Source of the DNA: Candidatus Saccharimonadota bacterium
Lineage (GTDB): Bacteria; Patescibacteriota; Saccharimonadia; Saccharimonadales; Saccharimonadaceae
Reading direction: 5' to 3'
NCBI GenBank assembly: GCA_017406905.1
Contig: JAFQXN010000006.1
Location: 186,001-250,000, forward strand
Length of the DNA stretch: 64,000 bases
Shown here: in pieces, positions 4,132 to 18,359 of the stretch
Layout: each line of letters opens with the position of its first letter
How positions within the stretch are numbered: the first letter of the stretch is position 1
Translations under genes and position numbers: made by a program
Notes under the pieces: generated by a model
The model's input: only the letters and a program-made list of their open reading frames with translations
Told to the model about the DNA's origin: nothing
The model's database searches: none

Positions 4132-5355
4132 ATGAAGATACTTATGCTAGGTTGGGAACTTCCACCGCATAATAGCGGAGGTCTTGGCGTCGCCTGTTTA
4201 AATATGGCTCGTGCGTTATCCAAGCAAGGTGCTGATATTGATTTTGTCGTACCGTATCAAGCTGCCCACCCAGAGATTGATTTCATGCACGTCATTTCCG
4301 CTACACATTTAGATCCTATCTACCGTTACGGTGGCGGCGCTTACGAGTCTAATAAAATCCTCGACAAAATCATCCCTGCTGCCGACCAAGCCCAGCTTCT
4401 ATCTATCCGTGACGTTCAACATTCCTATTGCGAATTTATCGAAAATTATCTCATGGAGTTTAAACCAGATATTGTCCACGCTCACGACTGGCTTACTTTT
4501 GAAGCTGGCGTCCTTGCCAAAAAGAATTACGGTCTACCGCTCGTGGCTCATGTCCACGCCACCGAGTTCGACCGCGCCGGTATGCACACCGGGAATCCTC
4601 TCATCCACGAAGTCGAATATGAAGGCTTAATGCTCGCCGATAAAATCATCGCCGTTTCCGAAGCTACCAAACGCATCATCCACGATAAATACCACATTCC
4701 CCTTTCCAAAATCGACGTCGTTTATAATTCCCTCGACGAAAACTATGACACCAATGACTATTTCTTCAATAAAAACGCCTACGGCTATCTCCAAAGCCTC
4801 AAGTCTCAAGGCTATACCATCATTTCTACCGTTGGCCGCTTCACCATCCAAAAGGGCCTCCATAATCTCATGCACGCTGCCGCTCTCGCCATTTCGCAAA
4901 ATCCTAAATTAATTTTTGTTTTCGCCGGCGATGGCGAAGAAAGAAACGAACTCATTAATCTTGCTGCCGATCTCGGCATCTCACAAAATGTCATCTTTAC
5001 CGGCTTCATTCGCGGCCAAAAATTACGCGATATTTATTCTATTTCTGATATTTTCGTGATGAGTTCGATTTCTGAGCCCTTTGGCCTCACCGCCCTAGAA
5101 GCTGCCCACCACGGCGACGCTCTTATCCTCACCAAACAATCCGGCGTTTCAGAGATTATCTGGTCTGCCATGAAATACGATTTCTGGGACGAACAAAAGC
5201 TCGCCGACGAAATTCTCGCCATCGCTAACAATCCCGCCCTGCGCCACACTTTACAACAAAACGTCCATCACGAATATCGTAAAATTTCCTGGAATCAAGT
5301 TGCGAAAAAATGCCTGAAGATATATAATAATACCATAAAACATAAGAGGAATTAA
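4132..5355 (+). CDS. GT4/GT5-type glycosyltransferase (glycogen-synthase-like)
   Basis: The 407-residue protein begins MKILMLGWELPPHNSGGLG, the sugar-nucleotide-binding opening typical of GT4/GT5 enzymes that act on alpha-glucans. The second Rossmann domain contains STVGRFTIQKG and the nucleotide-binding EPFGLTALEA motif at about residues 317-326. It probably adds glucose to an alpha-glucan. It sits 1 nt upstream of the GH57 gene, which suggests coupled translation and one pathway. A TAAAAT box at 4119-4124 ends 7 nt before the ATG, so the transcript is likely leaderless. Substrate specificity is inferred. Confidence 0.85.
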   Translation: MKILMLGWELPPHNSGGLGVACLNMARALSKQGADIDFVVPYQAAHPEIDFMHVISATHLDPIYRYGGGAYESNKILDKIIPAADQAQLLSIRDVQHSYCEFIENYLMEFKPDIVHAHDWLTFEAGVLAKKNYGLPLVAHVHATEFDRAGMHTGNPLIHEVEYEGLMLADKIIAVSEATKRIIHDKYHIPLSKIDVVYNSLDENYDTNDYFFNKNAYGYLQSLKSQGYTIISTVGRFTIQKGLHNLMHAAALAISQNPKLIFVFAGDGEERNELINLAADLGISQNVIFTGFIRGQKLRDIYSISDIFVMSSISEPFGLTALEAAHHGDALILTKQSGVSEIIWSAMKYDFWDEQKLADEILAIANNPALRHTLQQNVHHEYRKISWNQVAKKCLKIYNNTIKHKRN

Positions 5356-5356
5356 A

Positions 5357-6559
5357 GTGCGCGCGATTTGTCTGTATTTACACATTCATCAGCCGGTTCG
5401 TTATCGTGAGTATTCTATTTTTGATGTCAGCAATAATTCCAATTATTTCCAAGATAATTACAACGGTCGCCAGTCTAATGAACGCATTTTTAGAAAAGTC
5501 GCCGCTAAAAGCTACAAGCCCATGCTCGACCTTCTAGAGCACAATATGAATCTATATCCAGATTTCAAAGTTTCTTTTTCCATTACTGGCACCTGGCTCG
5601 ACCAAGCCGAAAAGTGGGGCCCAGAATTCATCGCACAAATTAAGCGCATGGTTAAACGCGGCCAAGCCGAAATCGTCGGCGAGACATACTATCACTCACT
5701 CGCTTTCTTCTATGACCTCGACGAATTCAACGACCAAGTCGCACAACATTCCGCCAAAATCCAAAAATTATTCGGAGTTAAGCCACAAGTATTCCGCAAT
5801 ACCGAACTTTCCTATAATGATAGCCTCGCCCGTTGGGCTGATGCTCACGGCTATAAAGGCATCCTCGCCGAAGGTTGGGATAAAATCTTAGGTTGGCGCA
5901 GCCCCAATCACGTCTATCGTCCGCTCGGCTGTTCAAATCTCAAGCTTCTCCTCAAAAATTATCGCCTTTCTGACGATATCGCCTTCCGTTTTTCCAATCG
6001 CGGCTGGAGCGAATGGCCACTCACCGTGCCCAAATACCAAAATTGGCTAGACCACGATTGCCTCCGCGGTAATCTCATCAATCTTTTCATGGATTTCGAA
6101 ACTTTCGGTGAGCACCAGTGGGAAGATACCGGCATTTTTGATTTCATGAATACTCTTATTCCAGATTGGCTTGGCCAATACGATAACAAATTCCTCACCG
6201 TCTCCGAAGCTTGCGATTTTAGCGAGCCTGCCGATGAAATCTCCATGCCAGAGACAGTCACCTGGGCCGATACCGAGCGAGATTTGTCCGCTTGGCTCTC
6301 TAATTCCATGCAGACTTCTGCCATGCAAGAAATCTACTCCATGCGCAAACAAGTCCTCGCCACTAAAGACGTTTCGCTCATCAACGATTGGCGCTATATG
6401 ACCACTTCCGACCACCCTTACGCTATGTGTACCAAATACTGGAACGATGGTGATGTTCACGCCTACTTCTCCGCCTATTCTTCACCATACGAAGCTTACA
6501 TGTACTTCGAAAACGTCCTCCGCGACCTAAAATACAGGATAAACCATAAAACTAATTAA
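5357..6559 (+). CDS. Glycoside hydrolase family 57 (alpha-amylase or branching-type)
   Basis: The 400-residue protein opens with the GH57 signature LYLHIHQPVR. It has the conserved FRNTELSYND segment (catalytic Glu) and MDFETFGEHQW (catalytic Asp). GH57 enzymes cleave or rearrange alpha-1,4/1,6-glucans. The start is GTG at 5357, with AGAGGA upstream, directly after the glycosyltransferase stop codon. The two genes form an operon that ends at the hairpin at 6553-6584. Together with GH97 they suggest storage or use of a glycogen-like polymer. Confidence 0.88.
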   Translation: MRAICLYLHIHQPVRYREYSIFDVSNNSNYFQDNYNGRQSNERIFRKVAAKSYKPMLDLLEHNMNLYPDFKVSFSITGTWLDQAEKWGPEFIAQIKRMVKRGQAEIVGETYYHSLAFFYDLDEFNDQVAQHSAKIQKLFGVKPQVFRNTELSYNDSLARWADAHGYKGILAEGWDKILGWRSPNHVYRPLGCSNLKLLLKNYRLSDDIAFRFSNRGWSEWPLTVPKYQNWLDHDCLRGNLINLFMDFETFGEHQWEDTGIFDFMNTLIPDWLGQYDNKFLTVSEACDFSEPADEISMPETVTWADTERDLSAWLSNSMQTSAMQEIYSMRKQVLATKDVSLINDWRYMTTSDHPYAMCTKYWNDGDVHAYFSAYSSPYEAYMYFENVLRDLKYRINHKTN

Positions 6560-6584
6560 CCCACCGTTTAGGGGTGGGTTAATT
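6553..6584. terminator. Bidirectional terminator between the GH57 gene and rpmG
   Basis: AATTAACCCACC and GGTGGGTTAATT form a 12-bp stem with a 7-nt loop. A/T-rich flanks on both sides allow it to serve both converging genes. The stem abuts both stop codons. Confidence 0.8.
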
Positions 6585-6794
6585 TTAGCGCTTCTTCTCT
6601 TTTACTTCGTTTCTACCGAGATTTTTCTTGGTCTCTACAAACAAGACGTGTTTCCTTAATACCGGGTCATATTTACGAAGACTCAATTTATCTGGAGTAT
6701 TCATAGTATTTTTCTTGGTATAGTAAGCCCGCACGCCAGATTCTTCTGAAACGAGCCCAACAAGCTTTCTCTTAGTATTATTCTTCTTTGCCAT
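6585..6794 (-). CDS. rpmG: 50S ribosomal protein L33
   Basis: The 69-residue basic protein begins MAKKNNTKRKLVGLVSEESG and contains the L33 core YYTKKNTMNTPDKLSLRKYDP. It has no zinc-binding cysteines, so it is the zinc-free L33 type. A longer in-frame reading upstream runs through the terminator at 6822-6850 and overlaps the zinc-ribbon gene in another frame. I therefore use the ATG at 6794, which has TATAAT (6806-6811) shortly upstream. It is convergent with the GH57 gene. Confidence 0.92.
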   Translation of the reverse strand: MAKKNNTKRKLVGLVSEESGVRAYYTKKNTMNTPDKLSLRKYDPVLRKHVLFVETKKNLGRNEVKEKKR

Positions 6795-6821
6795 AATTAT
6801 TGCCATTATATCACAGAGTAT

Positions 6822-6850
6822 AAAAAAAGGCAAGACCGAAGCCTTGCCTT
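6822..6850 (-). terminator. Terminator of the zinc-ribbon gene
   Basis: AAAGGCAAG and CTTGCCTTT form a perfect 9-bp stem. On the minus strand it is followed by a T run. It lies 10 nt downstream of the small gene's stop codon. Confidence 0.8.
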
Positions 6851-6859
6851 TGGCAGATC

Positions 6860-6991
6860 TTACGAGCCGCACATCAGGATATGCACGGCATACTGGCCTT
6901 GCGTCACGAAAACTGCGCCGCAATTCTGACAAGTCCACGTAATGCCGCAATCCCAGCGGGGAACCCGCTTACGCGCATACCGATCTACCAC
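6860..6991 (-). CDS. Small zinc-ribbon-like protein (43 aa), GTG start
   Basis: A short gene supported mainly by its signals. GTG at 6991 follows an AAGGAGG site at good spacing, a TTGTGA-17-TATAAT promoter lies at 7022-7050, and a terminator follows. The product has Cys at positions 15, 21, 24 and 41 (C-x5-C-x2-C and a distal Cys), a plausible single zinc site. I do not recognise the family. Base composition is richer in G+C than the neighbours. It might be a regulator or a small RNA- or DNA-binding protein, but nothing in the sequence decides this. Confidence 0.7.
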   Translation of the reverse strand: MVDRYARKRVPRWDCGITWTCQNCGAVFVTQGQYAVHILMCGS

Positions 6992-7021
6992 CGTAATCAC
7001 CTCCTTCTAAAGTTCTGAGTG

Positions 7022-7050
7022 ATTATATCAGTCTATCGCCCCCTTCACAA
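7022..7050 (-). promoter_or_regulatory. Promoter of the zinc-ribbon gene
   Basis: The minus strand has TTGTGA (7045-7050), a 17-nt spacer and TATAAT (7022-7027). The spacing is canonical, and an untranslated leader holds the AAGGAGG site. Confidence 0.7.
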
Positions 7051-7084
7051 ATTATCGACTGGTTTCCACACCACCACAATAGTA

Positions 7085-10000
7085 CTACTTTTTCGCATTT
7101 TTCGCAAGCAATAGCTCAATAAACTCCTTAATATCTTTCAGCCCTTTCGTCTTATCGGCACGCACCATCAACTCTTCATCATCTAAAAAGTAGAGATTCA
7201 CCACTTGCGCATATACCGCTCGCATCAGCGCCACTAGCGCCTTTTCGTCCTCCGCGCTAAAATCATACACCTTATCATACACCGCACCATCCTTTTTATC
7301 TGGCGTCACAAATAATATATGTGCTCGCGCTACCCGATATTTTGCGTATCGCGGCGACGCATTTAACAGTAATTTATAAAACAAAAGCTGCAACATATAT
7401 TTATATAATGTCGCGTGCGACTGCCACTTCTCTTTATGATACTCGCTCGTCTTGAAATCATAAATCTCAATCGTTTTTGTATCTTCATCTATTATAATAT
7501 GGTCAATTTTACCCGTCACCGGCACGCCATCTATCACTAATTTTTCCGTCGCAAAATCCACCTCTGCTCGCCCTTGTCGCAAAATCTCTCCAAAGCTCTC
7601 AAGTGCCACCGCCAAATCTGCCGGCCCCTTCTCGCGAATTTCTTGCATCACTTCCACCGGCAAATCCCTTCGCGTAAGCTCCGCCAAAAACAGCTTTTCC
7701 GCTTCTTCATCCGAAATACCCTTATTCGTTACCGCCTCAAACACCGTATGTATTAAATTACCCAGCGCTAGGGCTTTCGTCTCTGGCTCGCGCGGCGCCT
7801 GCAAAACATACGATTTAAAAAACGCTTCTGGCCCCGCATACACCACATCTACAAAAGAAGTTAATGCCGATGCTGACATCCGCCATTTTTCCACCCGCTC
7901 TTTATAAATCGCTCGCATATCCGGCGTATCTGCCATAAAAGGCCTCAGCCAATTCTTCAAATTCTCCTCTTTCACCTCTGGCGCCCCCACCCCATACATT
8001 AATTCCACTTTCCGATTCGGCAAAAACGGCGAAATCACCTCATCACCCTCTGCATACTCCTCAAAATATTCCAATCTCTCTGGAGATTTATCATTAAAAT
8101 CATGTAGCGAATTAGTAATATATATAAAAGATTTTGCCCGCGTCAACGCCACATACAAAATCCGCAATTTCTCACCGTCTGTCGTGCCGGTGTGTCGTAT
8201 CTGCATTAAATTCTTCGGTAGCGCTAAAAGATTATTATTTCCCTTACCCTTACCCCAAGCCGTATGATCGGCCGAAATAATAAACACATACTCAAATTCC
8301 AACCCTTTAGCTTTATGTGCCGTCAATATCTGCACCGCCTCATCTGCGTCTCTATACGGAGAATTTACATTTAACGCCATACCTGCCGCCGTGTAATCAT
8401 CCACCATTTCTATCAAATCCTGAAGTTTCAGGCTCTTCTCCCCAAAATGCTTTGCCAATTTCCCCTTTAACGCCGCCAAATTCTCATAAAACCTAAATCT
8501 CTCGTACTCTTCCATTTCGCCCGCATCCATCTTATCTATCAAATACCCCATAAACACATCTAGTGGCTCATTGAAAGATTTCGCCACCAATTCCCCTATC
8601 CACTCCGCCACCCCTGTAATTGCGGAGTTTTCACAGGCGCTCATTACATCAAATACCGCCCTTTTCTCTCTTTTCGCCTTCTCTACCAGCCTCACCACCT
8701 CTATTACCGGCAATTTCAAACAGGGGTAGGTCAAAACCTCCAAAATCGGCACACTTATCTGTTTACTATTCGCCATCTCCCATATAAATCTCGCCATCCC
8801 CAGCATTTCATGTATTTTTTCATCCTCAAACAGATTATCACGCTTCTCATAAGCGATTTTTATCTCCTCATGTGCCTTCAAATACGGCAAAAGTGGCTCA
8901 AAATACTTCGTTTTATAAGAAATCACCGCTATTTCACTCTGTTTTATCCCTGCACGCACCAATTCTGCAATTTTCTCTGCGATAAATCCATATTCCGCAT
9001 CCGCTGATTGAAATTCATATCTGTAAATCTGTGATTTCTCCGGCGCAGCTTTATGCGCTATCAGCTCCTTATCCGCAAATCTATCTGGTGCCTGCCGAAT
9101 CACCTCTCGTGAAAAATCCAAAATCTCCTGCGTACTCCGATAATTCTCCACCAAAGGTATCACCTCCGCCCCGTAATGCTCCTGAAAATCCGTCAAATTT
9201 GACGCCAAAGCCCCCTGAAATTCATAAATCGCCTGATCATCATCTCCCACCGCCATAATATTCGGGCGTTCGTAATCTGTTAATAATTTCACAATCGCAA
9301 ATTGCGACGGATTCGTATCCTGAAACTCATCTAGCATAATGAACTGGTACTTCTCCGCCAAAGTCATCCGAAAACCTTCGTCCTCTCTCAAAACTCGCCC
9401 CGCTTCCTCTATCATATCATTAAAATCATACAGCCCATTTTCCCGCAAATACTCCTCATATTTTTTCATCACCCCAGCAATAGACAGTAATTTCTTATTT
9501 GCCACTCGGTCTTTTAGCCGATACTCGCCCCTGTTATCTTTCTCAAAATACTTATCTTTCCACTCCGACAGCGGCTTCACCTTTTGCGCACTCTCCGCCT
9601 CTATCATCGCCGCTTTTAAATCTCGTGCTAAAATCGCAATATTGCGCTCTATCACCCCAGTATCACCTCTGAGTTTAATCGTCGCCGCCCCATCCGCATA
9701 CTTCGCTAAAATCTCATATATCGGTGCGTATGCATTATCGTACGATTCCTGGTATTTCCGCGGCACAATTTTCTGCAAAAACGGCGACACCGCCTCTGAT
9801 AATATCTTCGAATCCTCTATATTTTGCTCCGCCACCGCTTGCAAATCATCCTCACTTAGCCCCGCCGCCTTCGCCTCACCAATCACGCTAATAATATCTT
9901 TTACCGAATCCCCTTTAAGAATATCCGTACCGGGAAGCCCCCTCTGTATGTCCCTCACTATCTTATACTGCGTCACCTCATCTATTGCCGCGTCCAACTT

Positions 10001-11614: not shown

Positions 11615-12678
11615 GCAATCGTACTAATCTTTTGCAATTTATCTATAATCTTTGGCAGTACTTCCATTGCTCTATCTACATCTGCTTCAGTATTTTCCAG
11701 TCCAAACGAAAACCTAATCGACGAATGTGCCACTTCTGCATCGCCTGTCTTTGCCATCAACACATGACTAGGCTTAATGTCACCCGCCGCACAAGCCGAG
11801 CCAGTCGACACCACAATTCCTTCCGCATCTAGATACAATTGTATCGACTCCCCCTCCGCCGCCCGAAACGACACATTCAAAATATTCGGCAAAGATTTCC
11901 CCTCGCCTATATCAGTATTTAAACTACTGCCTGGCACTTCTGCTAGTATCCTCTGCGCCAACAAATTTCGCAATTTTGACACAAGTGTCGCATAACTTAC
12001 AGGGGTATTACACGATTTTAGCTTTTTCAGCGCCGCACCAAATCCTACGATTCCTACTACATTATATGTACCACCGCGCCGACCTTTTTCTTGCCTGCCG
12101 CCCACAATTAAAGGCTTAAATGGCACCCCCTCTCGTACATACAACGCCCCTACGCCCACCGGCCCGCCAATCTTATGTGCCGAAAAAGTCGCATAGTCCA
12201 ACCCCAGCTCATCTACATTTATTGGCATTTTGCCTAATACTTGCGTCAAATCCGAATGTAAATATTCCCCCTCACCCTTCGCCGGCAATTTCAGAATCTC
12301 GCCTGTCTCATTATTCGCCAACATATACGAGTATAATTTCGGCCGCCCCTCGCTCCGGCCACTCTCGCTACGATACATCCGCGCTGTCTCTAGTACCGAA
12401 TGATGCTCCAAATCCGAAGTCTCAATCTCGCACCCTTCAAAAGTCCTTATCACGGTATTATTGCTCTCGCTCGAACCCGAAGTAAATATTATCTCCTCTG
12501 GCTTCGCACCAATTATTTCCGCCATTAGCGCGCGCACCTTCTCTACTTCATTCATTGCCAAATGCCCCGGCGTATGTAAAGCCGACGCATTCGCCAAAAA
12601 TTCCCCCTCCGCTTTATGCATCGCCTCTCGCACTTCCGGAAGTAGCGGCATTGTCGCCGCATAGTCTAAATACACCAT
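11611..12678 (-). CDS. iscS: Cysteine desulfurase (IscS/NifS/SufS class V aminotransferase)
   Basis: The 355-residue PLP enzyme has EHHSV near the active site, the PLP-lysine segment TFSAHKIGGPVGVGALY and the catalytic-Cys loop GSACAAGD. It supplies sulfur for Fe-S assembly on the convergent SufU. It is shorter than usual because the stretch between EHHSVLETARMYRS and LYSYMLANNETG is reduced and partly replaced by a Gly/Arg/Ser-rich segment. Minus-strand TATAAT (12685-12690) lies 6 nt from the ATG, so the mRNA is probably leaderless. Confidence 0.92.
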   Translation of the reverse strand: MVYLDYAATMPLLPEVREAMHKAEGEFLANASALHTPGHLAMNEVEKVRALMAEIIGAKPEEIIFTSGSSESNNTVIRTFEGCEIETSDLEHHSVLETARMYRSESGRSEGRPKLYSYMLANNETGEILKLPAKGEGEYLHSDLTQVLGKMPINVDELGLDYATFSAHKIGGPVGVGALYVREGVPFKPLIVGGRQEKGRRGGTYNVVGIVGFGAALKKLKSCNTPVSYATLVSKLRNLLAQRILAEVPGSSLNTDIGEGKSLPNILNVSFRAAEGESIQLYLDAEGIVVSTGSACAAGDIKPSHVLMAKTGDAEVAHSSIRFSFGLENTEADVDRAMEVLPKIIDKLQKISTIA

Positions 12679-12779: not shown

Positions 12780-13778
12780 ATGAATACATTTCCGAATGAT
12801 TCTGGTGATGGATTCAAATCAATATCCATCAAAGAGTATAGAAACAACAAACGTAGGCTAAAGAAAAAAGAGGCCGTCAATTTCGACTCTATTATTCTCA
12901 CCCCTTGCAGTGGCAACCAAAATTGGCACGAAATCGCAGAGCACTCTGCGCTTTTTTATTATTACGAAATTTGCCCCAAACTCAGGCTCACGCCTAAGTT
13001 CTTTGCGGACATCACCAGTTTCTATGACCCATATGATATTGGCTACATCCGTACCGTAGGCGTAGATACTATTCGCAATAATCTCAAAAAGGCCAATTTA
13101 TTCGCCTCGGAAAGAAAGGAAGGCGATTTCATAATATTTAAACTAAACACCACTTACACCGAGGAGAGAGTAGCAGAGTTGATTCAAGCAGAAGAAAAGA
13201 GAAGATACGGCAATCTAGTAGCCAGTCCTACTGGGCCGCTCGATCCAATTCTGCATCAAAGTATCGTTAATACATCTACGCGCTTACATCGCGTCTGTAA
13301 TTCGCGTCTAGACAAGCTGTCCAGCTCTGTCAACGGCGCCGAAATCATCCAGTTATCAGACCAATTACTCATCGGTTATCATCAGATAACCATGTTCCCG
13401 AAAATCAAACCAGATAAGATAGTTGATGTACTAACCAAAATGCGAGGCGATATTTACTCACTCATTATTCGCGTACAGGTTCTTGGCGAGACCAAGCTCT
13501 GGGACCTGGAGACCTGCGTCAGTATTAGTGAACCTCTCTATCAAATACGCGATTTGATAGAGAAAGATTTGAAGAAGGCTATGCGCAAAGTTAATTCCGC
13601 AAAAAAATCGCGGCCAAACGGGCCACCAGCCAAAGGGGTAGTCGATCAGCCCCATCAGCCCGAACAGGCGCATAGCACTGATATACCAATAAAGCCGGCG
13701 GCGAAGCCAAACAATTCGACCAAAAAGCTACCCCGCCGGCCCAAGCAGCCACCGATTCAACCAGATTTATTCCTATGA
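12780..13778 (+). CDS. DGR accessory protein, Avd-like helical domain with extra N- and C-terminal regions
   Basis: The 332-residue protein sits directly upstream of the DGR reverse transcriptase and overlaps it by 4 nt (ATGA, 13775-13778). Residues about 155-265 form a helical, Lys/Arg-rich region (ITMFPKIKPDKIVDVL, then MRGDIYSLIIRVQVLGETK, then IRDLIEKDLKKAMRKV). Its position and character match Avd-type four-helix proteins that form pentamers and bind the reverse transcriptase and template RNA. The first 150 residues are not a known Avd part. The last 60 are a Pro/Lys-rich tail. A GAGG site lies close to the ATG. Avd identity is inferred from context and helix pattern. Confidence 0.65.
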   Translation: MNTFPNDSGDGFKSISIKEYRNNKRRLKKKEAVNFDSIILTPCSGNQNWHEIAEHSALFYYYEICPKLRLTPKFFADITSFYDPYDIGYIRTVGVDTIRNNLKKANLFASERKEGDFIIFKLNTTYTEERVAELIQAEEKRRYGNLVASPTGPLDPILHQSIVNTSTRLHRVCNSRLDKLSSSVNGAEIIQLSDQLLIGYHQITMFPKIKPDKIVDVLTKMRGDIYSLIIRVQVLGETKLWDLETCVSISEPLYQIRDLIEKDLKKAMRKVNSAKKSRPNGPPAKGVVDQPHQPEQAHSTDIPIKPAAKPNNSTKKLPRRPKQPPIQPDLFL

Positions 13779-15010
13779 AACCAGCCGACATTGAACAAAT
13801 AATTGCAGAAATTGACCTTCACGGTATGCGGTCTTGGCTCATCCAAGCCTTCACCGCATCTTTCCGCGAAGCCCGTAAGAACAAACTCAGCACCTTTAAT
13901 GAACATATCTACGATGAACACTGGACAGAAAATATCATCCATCTTACCGATGCCGTATTAGAGCGTTATTATATGCCCAGCTCATCCATTTCGTTTATTA
14001 TTTATGAGCCGATGATTCGGGAGATTTTTGCTGCGCCTTTTGTCGATCGCGTAGTGCACCATTTCCTCTATCGTATGCAAAGCGGCTGGTGGGATCGCCG
14101 CTTTATTGCTGATTCATACAGTTGCCGCGAGAACAAAGGCACCCTTTATGGCATTTTACGCACTCACAAGATGATGCAGCAAGCCACTAATAATTTCACC
14201 ACCGAAGCCTACGTTATCAAGCTAGACATCAGAGGTTATTTTATGTCTTTACCCCGTACCAAGCTTCTCGAACGCGTCAACTGGGGCCTAGAACGCCAAT
14301 TTCAACCCTATTTTAAATCTAGCTCCGCCTATCAACTTTTTCAAACTTGCGGCTTTCTTTGGCGCCAGATTCTTCTCGACGACCCTGTCCAAAAATCTCG
14401 CCGTCGCGGCCCCATCAGCGATTGGGATGTCCTTCCTCCTGAAAAATCCCTCTACACTCAGCCGCCCGGCCGCGGCATCGTGATTGGCAATCTCACCTCT
14501 CAACTCGTATCTAATATTTACCTAGACCAGCTAGATCGCTTCATTAAATACGATTTAGGCTATAAATATTACGGCCGCTATGTAGATGATTTCTTCATCA
14601 TCGTACCCAAATCCGACTACGAGCGCGCCAAACGCGATGTGCCAGTTATTGAAGAGTTTTTAAAAGAAGAACTCGGTCTCACCCTCCACCCTAAGAAACG
14701 CTACTACCAATCCGTCTATAAAGGCATCTCTTTCCTCGGCGTACGGATTTATCCGCATTGTCTTTACCCAAGCAATCGCATCCAGAAGAAATTCAAATAC
14801 ACTCTCCACAAGCTCGGTACCGACGAAATCAAAAAAGAGACAGTTGTCTCATATTTCGGTTATCTCAAACATCTAGACGTCGCCAAGTACGTCAAACAAA
14901 TGTTTGATAAATACGGCCATGATTATAATCTCTATTTAGAATCTCTTTCTCCTAACCGCCGTTCTTGGGATGAAATTATGAATGATTTCAAAAATCACAA
15001 AAATCCCTAA
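13775..15010 (+). CDS. DGR-type reverse transcriptase
   Basis: The 411-residue protein has the RT catalytic blocks: KLDIRGYFMS (first Asp, about residue 150), GIVIGNLTSQLVSN (about 233-246) and YGRYVDDFFIIV (YVDD, about 269). HPKKRYYQ and ISFLGVRI follow. The IGNLTSQ motif is typical of DGR and retron RTs, as opposed to the QGxxxSP of group II introns. The TR/VR pair next door makes it a DGR. The enzyme copies TR RNA with adenine-specific errors and the cDNA replaces VR. Translation is coupled to the accessory gene. Confidence 0.93.
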   Translation: MKPADIEQIIAEIDLHGMRSWLIQAFTASFREARKNKLSTFNEHIYDEHWTENIIHLTDAVLERYYMPSSSISFIIYEPMIREIFAAPFVDRVVHHFLYRMQSGWWDRRFIADSYSCRENKGTLYGILRTHKMMQQATNNFTTEAYVIKLDIRGYFMSLPRTKLLERVNWGLERQFQPYFKSSSAYQLFQTCGFLWRQILLDDPVQKSRRRGPISDWDVLPPEKSLYTQPPGRGIVIGNLTSQLVSNIYLDQLDRFIKYDLGYKYYGRYVDDFFIIVPKSDYERAKRDVPVIEEFLKEELGLTLHPKKRYYQSVYKGISFLGVRIYPHCLYPSNRIQKKFKYTLHKLGTDEIKKETVVSYFGYLKHLDVAKYVKQMFDKYGHDYNLYLESLSPNRRSWDEIMNDFKNHKNP

Positions 15011-15021
15011 CCTAACAGACT

Positions 15022-15048
15022 AAAAGCCCCTCACCGAGAGGGACTTTT
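15022..15048. terminator. Terminator between the RT gene and TR, usable in both directions
   Basis: AAAAGCCCCTC and GAGGGACTTTT form an 11-bp stem with one mismatch, and T/A runs lie on both sides. It ends the RT operon on the plus strand and the TR RNA on the minus strand. Confidence 0.7.
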
Positions 15049-15061
15049 CATGTAGGGCGAC

Positions 15062-15302
15062 GGAGTCACGAGAAAGAACGCGAAGACTACAAGACCGAGG
15101 AGAACCTAGAGAGCGACCTAGCGAGCCACGCAGCGCACTGACCTTCCGTTGTTGCGATTGTTCCTGTTCGCCGGGTTGAGATTGGACGAATTGAAGTTCA
15201 GGTTGTAAGCGTTGCTAGATGACTGGGCCGAGCTAGACCAGTAGTTCCCGTTCGTACTGAAATTGTTCAGAGTAGTAGAGTTCACGTTGCCCGAGCGGAC
15301 AA
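15062..15302 (-). repeat. DGR template repeat (TR)
   Basis: This 241-bp segment matches 15653-15893 at a constant offset of 591. In the variable part (15144-15288), 22 positions differ and all are T on the plus strand in TR, i.e. A in the template sense. VR shows G at 14, T at 7 and C at 1 of these in the sense orientation. The 79 bp from 15062 to 15140 differ only at 15068 and hold the IMH-like initiation segment. The frame remains open and is full of AAC codons, but I regard it as a non-coding template. Confidence 0.96.
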
Positions 15303-15521
15303 CCGCTAACCTGCGGTTTTTGAGGACTTCTCCTTTTTCTATGCCCCCTTGAGAGCAAAGATTTTTGATTGAACTCCCGTACTTATCCCGAGAGTGAGTC
15401 CACCCGACTCCCGTGCATACCATCTGCCGGAGGTGTCACTTCGGAGCCTTACCCCCTACTACAACTTGAGCTCGGCGGTGAGCCCAAGCCTAGTGATGCT
15501 CCCGATGGCCCCCACACTTTC
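15303..15521 (-). ncRNA. 5' part of the predicted TR RNA (no gene)
   Basis: This stretch between the TR promoter and TR has no supported gene. It is predicted to be the leader of the template RNA, which needs flanking structure for priming in studied DGRs. A small hairpin, AACCGC/GCGGTT with a 6-nt loop (15301-15318), sits exactly at the TR 5' boundary. A short open frame runs from here into TR, but it lacks a convincing start and family. Confidence 0.5.
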
Positions 15522-15549
15522 ATTATATCACCTTTCTCTTAAAAACCAA
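15522..15549 (-). promoter_or_regulatory. Probable promoter of the TR RNA
   Basis: Minus-strand TTGGTT (15544-15549), a 16-nt spacer and TATAAT (15522-15527) would start transcription near 15515, read through TR and stop at the hairpin at 15022-15048, giving an RNA of about 490 nt. The -35 box overlaps the T-tract of the target gene's terminator. Confidence 0.6.
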
Positions 15550-15568
15550 ACCCCCGCTTACGCGGGGG
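15541..15568 (-). terminator. Terminator of the DGR target gene
   Basis: CCCCCGC and GCGGGGG form a 7-bp GC stem with a 4-nt loop (15551-15568). On the minus strand it is followed by TTTGGTTTTT. It separates the target mRNA from the TR RNA. Confidence 0.75.
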
Positions 15569-15652
15569 GAGTGAAGTGTATTTTGGGATGAATGTTTGTT
15601 TGTTCCAGGTTCCCTTGTTACTTTCGTGGATTGCAGGTTCTTTTTCAGCACG

Positions 15653-15893
15653 GGAGTCGCGAGAAAGAACGCGAAGACTACAAGACCGAGGAGAACCTAG
15701 AGAGCGACCTAGCGAGCCACGCAGCGCACTGACCCCCCGACGCTGCGATCGTACCTGTTCGCCGGGTAGAGATTGGACGAACCGAAGTACAGGCTGTAAG
15801 CGAGGCTAGATGACTGGGCCGAGCTAGACCAGTAGTACCCGCTCGTACTGAAACTGTACAGAGTAGTAGAGCCCACGCCGCCCGAGCGGACAA
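15653..15893 (-). repeat. DGR variable repeat (VR) in the target gene
   Basis: This is the 3' end of the target gene plus 56 bp beyond its stop codon. Relative to TR, 15 Asn codons and one Arg codon have changed (to Tyr, Ser, Gly, Leu, Asp, Val or Gly). The framework residues YWSSSAQSSS and SVRCVAR are unchanged. The shared segment after the stop codon is the likely IMH and downstream recognition region. Confidence 0.96.
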
Positions 15894-17313
15894 AGTAGAA
15901 GGGCTTATTCACCATCTTACTAAAGCCACCACTTGCATAGCCTACGTTAGTACCGCTAGTACCTAGTGTAGTATCACTACCGTTGGTAATGCCATTGGCT
16001 CTGAATAAGGTGTTAAATTCTGATTCTACCACTGTGCTGCCGTCCATCGTTAAGCCTTTTGGCAATCTCCAGCCTGCCGGACAGATAGAATCTGGTGCGG
16101 TGGTTGGATCCGCTGTGTAGCTAGAAGTATTATTTGTCGCCACCGCTGCAGACCAGTTATAGTAATTACCTACGTGGTAGTGTAGACATTCGGACTCTGA
16201 GTGGTAAAGCTCACATTGTGCTAACGAAGTGTAGATAGTATTACTTGAGCCGTTTGTCCAAGCGTAGGTATCGCCGCCTTCTACTTGGTATGGGTTGTTA
16301 TTATTACTACTGGTAAAGCCTGATACTACACCCTCTGTCGTACCAGAATTAAATGCACTAATCGTACCCGGTGTCGCCAAAGTAGCATTTGGCTGCCAGG
16401 TAGCAGTTGTATCGCCTGTCGTATAGCCTAGGTCTGTATCCGCGTGGCTGTAAGTACGGGTGGTATCTATCACGTGGTCTAAGTTCTGTGTCATCCAGAG
16501 CTGAGAGTGCTCAAAGTCATCATTAGCACAAGCCGTACCGTCTGTCCTGGTACAGAGCCTGGCTACCGTGTAAGTCTTATTATCACGTGTATCTACCGCC
16601 GTGGTTTCGTCACCCACTAAGAGCTCTGTCGCCCAGTCGCCTACTGTCTGCATGGTGTGAGCATTTGGTGCTGCACCCATAGATGGGTGTACTAATACGT
16701 ACTTCACCTGGCCTACATAAGTACCGGCTGGTTGATCTGGCTTTACTGATGCTGCGTAGGTAGTCTCTACCCACGAACCAGTACCAGTGGTAGAATCATC
16801 CGTTGCATTATTGTACTTTGCGACCTTTACATATGTATTTGGTACCTGGTGATAACTATCAAAATTATTCTGCACGGTTGGCACGTAACTGCTACCAGCC
16901 GCCGTGAGCTTCATCGCCCAGTTGGAGATAGAACCGTCTAGTACGGGAGAAGTACCGCCGGTGGATGTAATGTCGTACGTGCTGCCAAGTGTACTATCGC
17001 GTAGCATCGTCTGACCGTCTGTATTGCCAGTATAGCCAATCGCATAGATAGCGTAGCCGCTTTCGTCATTACAGAAAGATTTCAGCGTAGTCTTACCAAT
17101 GTCTAGCTCGTAGCCGCCGTTTACGATGGTGGCAGTGTGTTCGTCGCCAGACTGAATTGTACCGGTCATGGAACAAGTGGACGACACTGTGACCGAAGCA
17201 CTAGACGACACCACCCGGCCCTCCGCGTGCGACTGCGGCATCGTAAGTACCGCACCTGAAAGGACTGTGGTACCAACCAACCCTCCCAGAATGATATTAG
17301 TTCTTTTGTGCAT
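15709..17313 (-). CDS. DGR-diversified exported surface protein with C-type-lectin-like C-terminus
   Basis: The 534-residue protein starts MHKRTNIILGG with a signal peptide ending near SHA-EG. A beta-rich domain follows (about 30-220; SVKPDQPAGTYVGQVKYVL is pilin/WxL-like). The C-terminal part (about 240-534) contains ICPAGWRLP, YYWSSS and SVRCVAR, the hallmarks of the Fibrobacter succinogenes major paralogous / FGE-like C-lectin fold used as a DGR target. The last 60 residues are VR. The ATG at 17313 has a GGGAG site; a longer reading would begin upstream of the -10 box. It likely binds ligands at the cell surface, for instance on a host cell. Confidence 0.92.
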   Translation of the reverse strand: MHKRTNIILGGLVGTTVLSGAVLTMPQSHAEGRVVSSSASVTVSSTCSMTGTIQSGDEHTATIVNGGYELDIGKTTLKSFCNDESGYAIYAIGYTGNTDGQTMLRDSTLGSTYDITSTGGTSPVLDGSISNWAMKLTAAGSSYVPTVQNNFDSYHQVPNTYVKVAKYNNATDDSTTGTGSWVETTYAASVKPDQPAGTYVGQVKYVLVHPSMGAAPNAHTMQTVGDWATELLVGDETTAVDTRDNKTYTVARLCTRTDGTACANDDFEHSQLWMTQNLDHVIDTTRTYSHADTDLGYTTGDTTATWQPNATLATPGTISAFNSGTTEGVVSGFTSSNNNNPYQVEGGDTYAWTNGSSNTIYTSLAQCELYHSESECLHYHVGNYYNWSAAVATNNTSSYTADPTTAPDSICPAGWRLPKGLTMDGSTVVESEFNTLFRANGITNGSDTTLGTSGTNVGYASGGFSKMVNKPFYFVRSGGVGSTTLYSFSTSGYYWSSSAQSSSLAYSLYFGSSNLYPANRYDRSVGGSVRCVAR

Positions 17314-17413: not shown

Positions 17414-18268
17414 CTATACCAACACTTTCTTACGCCTATGTCGCCGTATCGCATAAGTAATCGCGGCGCCAATCGCACCCACTGTCACTGCCACCAACAT
17501 CATAAACCATATCGGACATACTATTACTGTGTGCGATTCCGTAAACGTCTCGCCCATATATTGCACTATTTGTGATACTTCATACACGCCCAGCGAAGAT
17601 AAATCATCTACCTCGCGAATAATCTCACGCGTAGTATATGGCATCACGACTTCTTCTATCGTGCCAGTTTCGTTATTTTCCGGATAAATCATGTTCGACG
17701 AGAAGAAATCCTTTACTCGCACCGTCACTCTGGCTTTCTCGTGTACGTTACCATCGTTTTTAACGGTCGCTCTTGTCGTAATTGGCAAAGACGTCACAAA
17801 CCCCGGGAAACTATTACTAGTTATCTCGCCCTCACGCACCGTCTCACCGTCTACATTGGCATAAATAATACTCGCCATTTCATATATATTATTTACTGTC
17901 ACACTGCCGTTAGAAGCCCCGCTACCCGCCGAACCTACCATTAATGCTGCATATTGCCCGCCCGCTGGCGCGTTTTCTGGTACTTTTATCGTAAACTCTA
18001 CCTCACGCGTCTCGTTTGGCTTTAACGTGCCAGTAGGCTCTTTAATTTCAATCCATTTTACTATTTGCGATTGCTCGCTCTCCGTCAAAAAATCCGCCTC
18101 ATATTCCTCACCTCTCACATTATATACTGATGCCGTTACGCGATAAGTAAAATCGCTCTTCGCGCTCGCCGGATTTGCCACCACGATTCTGCCAGTGTAC
18201 TCCTCCCCCGCCACCAATTCTATCGTCTGGCTCATCGGCGTCACGGTAAACATATCGCTAATATCCAT
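17414..18268 (-). CDS. DUF916/WxL-interacting-type surface protein with C-terminal membrane anchor
   Basis: The 284-residue protein has an Ig-like beta domain (FTVTPMSQTIELVAGEEYTG, then KVPENAPAGGQYAALMVG), a second beta domain, and a C-terminal membrane helix (ICPIWFMMLVAVTVG) followed by a basic tail RRHRRKK. This order resembles DUF916-DUF3324 proteins of WxL systems, which anchor WxL-type proteins to the envelope. No signal peptide is visible after the ATG at 18268, although a GGAGGG site fixes that start; this is odd for an outside-facing domain. It lies 100 bp upstream of the DGR target on the same strand and may hold it at the surface (inference). Confidence 0.68.
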   Translation of the reverse strand: MDISDMFTVTPMSQTIELVAGEEYTGRIVVANPASAKSDFTYRVTASVYNVRGEEYEADFLTESEQSQIVKWIEIKEPTGTLKPNETREVEFTIKVPENAPAGGQYAALMVGSAGSGASNGSVTVNNIYEMASIIYANVDGETVREGEITSNSFPGFVTSLPITTRATVKNDGNVHEKARVTVRVKDFFSSNMIYPENNETGTIEEVVMPYTTREIIREVDDLSSLGVYEVSQIVQYMGETFTESHTVIVCPIWFMMLVAVTVGAIGAAITYAIRRHRRKKVLV

Positions 18269-18359
18269 CAATTCCCTCCACTACTTATTTCACCATTATA
18301 TCATACCACATTCGCCAACGCGAGAATTATCGCATCTTAGTTATGCGACAATTGTCTCA

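Follow-up and report, generated by a model that had tools for sequence, protein, structure and literature searches.

A Saccharibacteria diversity-generating retroelement with an inverted template repeat, a conserved 5' leader and a fused accessory protein

Diversity-generating retroelements (DGRs) are the best-known natural system of targeted protein hypermutation. Here, we analyzed one such element in a stretch of 64,000 nt (hereafter the window, to which coordinates refer unless another locus is named), corresponding to positions 186,001-250,000 of contig JAFQXN010000006.1 from a Candidatus Saccharimonadota bacterium (assembly GCA_017406905.1). The window DGR is real and complete and belongs to the known kind of DGRs, of which it is a variant because its lineage combines an inverted template repeat (TR), a conserved leader 5' of the TR and a fused accessory protein. 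A preliminary description made from the sequence had rightly recognized a DGR and had assigned its target gene, reverse transcriptase (RT) and accessory gene to the same reading frames as given below, while the inverted layout, the leader RNA, the accessory fusion and two sister DGRs in the same genome had been missed. The genes and repeats of the locus are as follows.

12780-13778, plus strand: accessory protein, 332 aa, with an N-terminal alpha/beta domain (suggestively MutS domain I-like, MSL type) and a C-terminal Avd four-helix bundle (AlphaFold model, pLDDT 87)
12819-13229, plus strand: the MutS-I-like N-terminal domain of this protein (alignment A9; separate model, pLDDT 94)
13775-15010, plus strand: DGR RT, 411 aa (PF00078; best solved structure 8ub7)
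15062-15302, minus strand: TR, antisense to the RT gene and convergent with it (recomputed repeat alignment)
15062-15143, minus strand: unmutated 3' part of the TR, a tail like IMH* (IMH, initiation of mutagenic homing), with VR counterpart 15653-15734; no adenine is changed after index 158
15653-15893, minus strand: variable repeat (VR; recomputed repeat alignment and in-frame comparison)
15709-17313, minus strand: target gene, predicted exported protein of 534 aa with a FISUMP/C-lectin-like C-terminus (TIGR02145; signal-peptide-like N-terminus)

Genes, repeats and adenine-specific changes

The completeness of the DGR, as first described, is supported by the RT family, the Avd fold, the adenine-specific changes and the FISUMP match. 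Among solved structures, the window RT had its best sequence match in the RT of the Bordetella phage BPP-1 DGR (8ub7, E 1.8e-33), while residues 156-272 of the accessory protein matched BPP-1 Avd (4dwl) with Z 13.8 and rmsd 1.7, and also the DGR complex 8ub8. Besides these two proteins, the window shares with BPP-1 the adenine-specific change from TR to VR, a C-lectin-type target end and an unmutated 3' tail. The RT motifs IGNLTSQ (~14483-14503) and YVDD (~14579-14590) are intact. The target protein matched TIGR02145 (FISUMP) above cut-off (E 3.3e-13), with the VR at its C-terminus and a signal-peptide-like N-terminus, which agrees with the earlier view that the C-lectin-like end of a probably exported protein is diversified; that this protein recognizes the host cell is a plausible guess. 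An assignment of the RT as a defence RT, from PADLOC and NCBIfam matches, was rejected as general RT similarity, the NCBIfam scores being far below their cut-offs.

The adenine signature was borne out when the repeats were realigned. TR and VR (241 bp each, ungapped) differ at 23 of 241 positions, 22 of which are TR adenines (in the coding, minus-strand sense A>G 14, A>T 7, A>C 1), and the single other difference, a T>C (15068/15659), lies in the tail beyond the stop codon. Given 52 adenines among the 241 TR positions, the hypergeometric probability of this concentration is p = 6.4e-16. In frame, 17 codons are changed: the 15 Asn codons and one Arg codon (AGG) listed in the preliminary description were confirmed, and a silent Gly change (GGA>GGG), absent from that list, was added. 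The Asn codons in the TR are AAC (13) and AAT (4), and AA dinucleotides hold all 22 mutated adenines of the window. In the last 82 nt of the TR, including the stretch past the stop codon, none of the five adenines is mutated and one T>C change is present; the last 30 nt of 98 TRs of the lineage are pyrimidine-rich, with 11% A vs. 30% elsewhere. Adenines in AA pairs were changed ~5 times as often as isolated ones (50% vs. 9% in the 98 Saccharibacteria TRs, 49% vs. 11% in 55 phage TRs), an excess that is confounded with codon choice in the TR.

The source genome (584,732 bp in 13 contigs, completeness 90%), that of a very small parasitic bacterium of the gut, carries three RT genes of the window family, each accompanied by an accessory gene, a TR and a VR of its own. 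In the sister DGRs, 16 of 18 (L009: TR 2598-2829, VR 77-308) and 17 of 18 (L010: TR 9203-9441, VR 11645-11883) TR/VR differences fall at A. Both have a fused accessory gene, their own RT, in which IGN(L/F)TSQ and YVDD are kept, a FISUMP-like target and an inverted TR.

The DGR had been called active or recently active, and a comparison of VRs among related strains had been proposed. When run on near-identical relatives, it revealed variation at TR adenines in two pairs: in L017/L018 (three TR differences) the VRs differ at 24 of 61 shared TR adenines and at 0 of 173 other sites, and in L048/L051 (one TR difference) at 24 of 67 TR adenines and 1 of 148 other sites. As the VRs of near-identical strains differ almost only at TR adenines, the lineage is active. 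For the window copy, the adenine-specific changes, the intact RT and the active relatives all suggest present or recent activity, and from the sequence we infer homing in the window strain itself. It is very unlikely that the element is a relic, its pattern inherited and its RT or TR no longer working in this strain: all reading frames and RT motifs are intact, the VR has no premature stop codon, the TR with its 52 adenines is undegraded and members of the lineage diversify between near-identical strains. Two points speak for a relic and weigh against activity of the window copy, namely that a near relative (L026) keeps RT and accessory genes at the same genomic site without TR and target there, and that no near-identical strain of the window copy was found in the collections searched (the scan of viral collections gave only 33-39% identical relatives).

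Inverted layout and accessory protein in the lineage

The canonical BPP-1-type arrangement, with the TR on the RT strand and upstream of the RT gene, was not found in the window, where the TR is antisense and downstream. Layouts were counted in 98 non-redundant relatives for which a TR/VR pair could be detected; their pooled fractions of changed TR bases were 35.5% for A, 1.0% for C, 0.7% for G and 1.1% for T. The TR is antisense to the RT gene in 94 of the 98 and lies just downstream of it in 92 of these, with a median gap of 41 nt to the RT stop codon. In 75 loci the target is upstream on the RT strand, the TR alone being inverted, and in 17, the window included, it is downstream on the other strand; on the RT tree, this downstream-target state needs ~13 changes, at least 9 of them on well-supported branches. 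As a control, the same method was applied to 55 rumen-phage contigs (IMG/VR, L170-L249) with RTs 33-39% identical and the same adenine signature, which unlike the lineage had canonical order and orientation in 55/55 and neither the fused accessory domain nor the leader motif described below. Unfused DGRs from Saccharibacteria loci outside the lineage group were co-oriented in 10 cases and not in 4. The nearest named relatives are Saccharibacteria metagenome-assembled genomes, mostly from ruminant gut, and one full-length relative (L012) has the layout of the window with RT and target identities of 69% and 45%. In two loci (L067, 1790-2009; L167, 2104-2363) the places of TR and VR are swapped around the accessory and RT genes, the TR being upstream in RT sense and the VR downstream and antisense, as if the accessory-RT pair had been inverted between them.

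Inverted DGRs have been described as rare cases, i.e., DiGReF group 4 with three gammaproteobacteria (PMC3521204) and pattern G5 (PMC6642488). As far as the available text of these sources goes, they resemble the window in having the RT on one strand and TR, VR and target on the other; inversion is rare there, whereas it is the rule in the present lineage, mostly with the TR alone inverted, and the same text describes no leader RNA, in contrast to the conserved leader found here. The DGRs of the Candidate Phyla Radiation, which like the window DGR are cell-encoded in Patescibacteria, form clade 2, and TR orientation is not discussed in the main text of that study (PMC8144416); most of their targets are reported there to lack a recognizable domain, in contrast to the FISUMP domain of the window target.

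An open reading frame of 150-368 aa lies directly 5' of the RT gene in 95 of the 98 loci, and the N-terminal domain is present in 78 of 80 named loci. At E ≤ 1e-6, this domain was detected in 48 genomes of one genus, that of the source genome, and in 0 of 155 other genera sampled from the order (156 genera in all); diverged copies occur in four genomes from other genera of the family. It was not found in the accessory proteins of the rumen-phage relatives, and the TR position is canonical in those loci where a short Avd alone precedes the RT (L169, L259, L262, L264).

A Pfam sequence search with the accessory protein gave no match (MutS_I, PF01624, included) and Foldseek gave no confident match for the N-terminal domain. 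The top six VIA rows for this domain were all MutS domain I, with weak scores (Z 5.0-5.6), and profile comparison with MutS (hhalign) was also weak (E 0.024, probability 2%). The modelled structure is suggestive of a MutS-I-like, MSL-type domain fused to Avd; DGR accessory proteins of the MSL type, to which MutS_I has been assigned, are known (PMC10053308). MutS_I (PF01624) was found in 11 of 14 control genomes and in 0 of 12 relative genomes (G000 included). The domain therefore does not resemble a MutS that these genomes carry, and missing mismatch repair could help to fix DGR changes. The domain might act as a MutS, binding the mismatched heteroduplex of complementary DNA (cDNA) and VR during homing and not RNA; the fold similarity, the known MSL proteins and the lack of a detected MutS in these genomes agree with such a role, which we regard as somewhat unlikely given how weak the similarity is.

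Beside the target gene lies a gene (17414-18271) for a protein like WxL-interacting proteins (PF06030, below cut-off) with a C-terminal membrane-like segment, also found in L012 and L026, whose product is a possible anchor for the diversified protein. In L026, positions 4211-7153 occupy the genomic site of the window DGR (helicase and gpsA, then nrdG and nrdD) with intact accessory and RT genes; neither TR nor target lies between the RT gene and the WxL-interacting-like gene, whose orientation is opposite to that in the window. L026 is a DGR core that either lost its target or serves a target elsewhere.

Leader of the template RNA

Between the RT stop codon and the target gene, the following features were annotated around the TR.

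15027-15042, both strands: two-way terminator-like hairpin between the RT stop codon and the 3' end of the TR, found on both strands
15303-15515, minus strand: structured leader of the TR RNA, its start predicted from the -10 box (fold -75.6 kcal/mol, z -2.1 vs. shuffles)
15338-15361, minus strand: leader hairpin with UCAAGG hexaloop (UCUUUGCUC-UCAAGG-GGGCAUAGA), of the YYANGG-loop hairpin family
15370-15413, minus strand: leader motif GGRR..GRC.CAC followed by a hairpin (ACUCUCG...CGGGAGU); lineage motif plus stem, the hairpin being present in the centroid fold
15522-15527, minus strand: -10 box TATAAT, preceded by TG, the presumed promoter of the TR RNA (lineage enrichment of TATAAT)
15551-15568, minus strand: intrinsic terminator that ends the target gene, shortly before the promoter of the TR RNA (CCCCCGCGTAAGCGGGGG TTTGGTTTTT)

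In the lineage, leaders of ~150-270 nt with conserved hairpins and G-rich starts lie 5' of the TR on the TR strand. TATAAT is found upstream of the TR in 38 of 72 leaders, vs. 6.8 ± 2.4 in shuffled sequences and 18 in antisense. A direct DNA search of 174 genomes of the genus, with the window leader as query, returned short chance-level matches only, so that an approach based on motif and structure was needed; an Rfam search of the window locus matched no family. De novo, a leader motif GGRRA..CAGRAGC.CMCUU was obtained with a log-likelihood ratio of 124, vs. 40-50 in shuffled sets. The motif without its stem is weak (45 of 91 leaders vs. 21-25 in controls at score 11), and the region that follows it, located without regard to pairing, has a mean stem of 5.0 vs. 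3.65 in shuffled sequences (z 12.8; z 7.5-13 over tests). A covariance model built from eight sequences had both-side changes in four of six pairs and recovered further loci almost only at the leader position and strand. An enlarged model behaved alike; with both, the matches at E ≤ 1 fell almost entirely within TR leaders, in the TR sense, and the enlarged model gave chance-level matches on 578 kb of phage DGR loci. In one truncated contig in which no TR/VR pair was found (L043, 280-335, plus strand), a leader-motif match lies upstream of the RT gene.

The second element is the YYANGG hairpin; UCAAGG, CUACGG and CCAAGG ranked top in an unprompted hexaloop census. YYANGG hairpins with a stem of at least 6 are present in 34 of 91 leaders, vs. 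a shuffled mean of 0.5, 1 in the reverse complement and 0 of 55 in phages, and those with long stems number 28 in 18 kb of leaders vs. 47 in 1630 kb elsewhere. In addition, the leaders of one subgroup (L071, L083, L087, L088, L144, L060) could be aligned into four helices with 15 pairs changed on both sides, above slid and shuffled controls. The leader hairpins are conserved, occur in the window as well, move together with the TR and are not found in phage DGRs.

These patterns strongly suggest, at the level of sequence, that the TR RNA is an independent transcript. It is highly improbable that the true template is instead the RT-sense transcript, with the TR as 3' untranslated region of the avd-RT mRNA and an RT that mutates opposite template U and not A. 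The TR lies ~40 nt from the RT stop codon, sometimes overlapping it, and read-through would include it; but terminator-like hairpins for RT-sense transcription occur past the RT gene in 56 of 92 loci (vs. 11 in shuffles), the leader hairpins are on the TR strand and not on its reverse complement, the unmutated identity tail is at the coding-sense 3' end, as is the IMH of a coding-sense template, and in the related phage DGRs, with their co-oriented TR, the RT mutates A in the coding sense.

A role of the leader hairpins in regulating expression (as attenuator or by antisense control of RT or target), and not as part of the RNA of the RT complex, is unlikely as well. It would fit the position between convergent genes where terminators are abundant. 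The motifs are found upstream of the TR whether the target is upstream or downstream, whereas elements that regulate RT or target would be expected to stay with the respective gene, and in L053, L046 and L166, where the TR is elsewhere or flipped, the TATAAT box and the motif remain 5' of the TR.

Proposed mechanism and its meaning

We consider it very probable that the window holds a complete DGR of the Saccharibacteria lineage whose template RNA is transcribed separately from, and antisense to, the RT operon. Accessory protein and RT would be expressed from one strand, while a TR RNA of ~480-490 nt (structured leader of ~213 nt, 241-nt TR and short 3' end) would start at the TATAAT box on the other strand and end at the hairpin beside the RT stop codon, both ends being predicted. 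The RT-Avd complex would make errors at adenines when copying this RNA, and the cDNA, anchored through the identical tail that lies unmutated beyond the stop codon, would replace the VR in the gene of the exported FISUMP protein. The most likely role of the leader hairpins would be to label this RNA in trans for the RT-accessory complex, possibly by way of the extra N-terminal domain.

In BPP-1, target, avd, TR and RT lie in this order on one strand, and a structured spacer 3' of the TR recruits the RT and primes (PMC12875486). The window differs in that its TR is antisense and downstream, the 3' side of the TR is short, conserved hairpins lie 5' of it, Avd carries a second, fused domain and the VR is not followed by an inverted repeat. 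The leader may dock the RT-accessory complex in trans and replace the BPP-1 3' spacer. More specifically, we tentatively propose, at somewhat less than even confidence, that the RNA part which recruits and primes the RT complex has moved from 3' of the TR to a separately transcribed 5' leader, which would be read in trans by an Avd with an extra nucleic-acid-binding domain.

Several results count against the overall model given at the start of this section. No -35 element was matched upstream of the window TATAAT, covariance model R2 aligned the window motif only weakly (4.3 bits), and for several of the motif tests the positions or structures were selected once the sequences had been viewed. 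The 5' flanks overall do not have higher folding energy than the 3' flanks; bulk fold energy was for this reason not used as leader evidence, and because the 5' flanks fold no better, an element 3' of the TR formed by RT antisense sequence is possible. In the 60 nt 3' of the window VR no inverted repeat was found (best Watson-Crick stem 3 bp). A stem of at least 7 bp follows the VR in 26% of lineage members, and such an inverted repeat enhances the process and is not strictly needed.

To our knowledge, BPP-1 is the only DGR whose mechanism has been worked out in detail, and it depends on a structured RNA located 3' of the template, next to the RT gene. That a large bacterial lineage has its template RNA uncoupled, inverted and equipped with a conserved leader suggests that the BPP-1 layout is not required, and comparison with this lineage offers a natural way to find out what the RT complex recognizes. 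If recruitment by the 5' leader is true, then inversion, leader RNA and accessory fusion would have co-evolved as a single design, and the leader by itself could direct any TR to the complex. That a reduced genome of ~0.6 Mb keeps three diversifiers of exported proteins, each independent of the others, is relevant to the ways in which Saccharibacteria deal with hosts, phages or neighbours.

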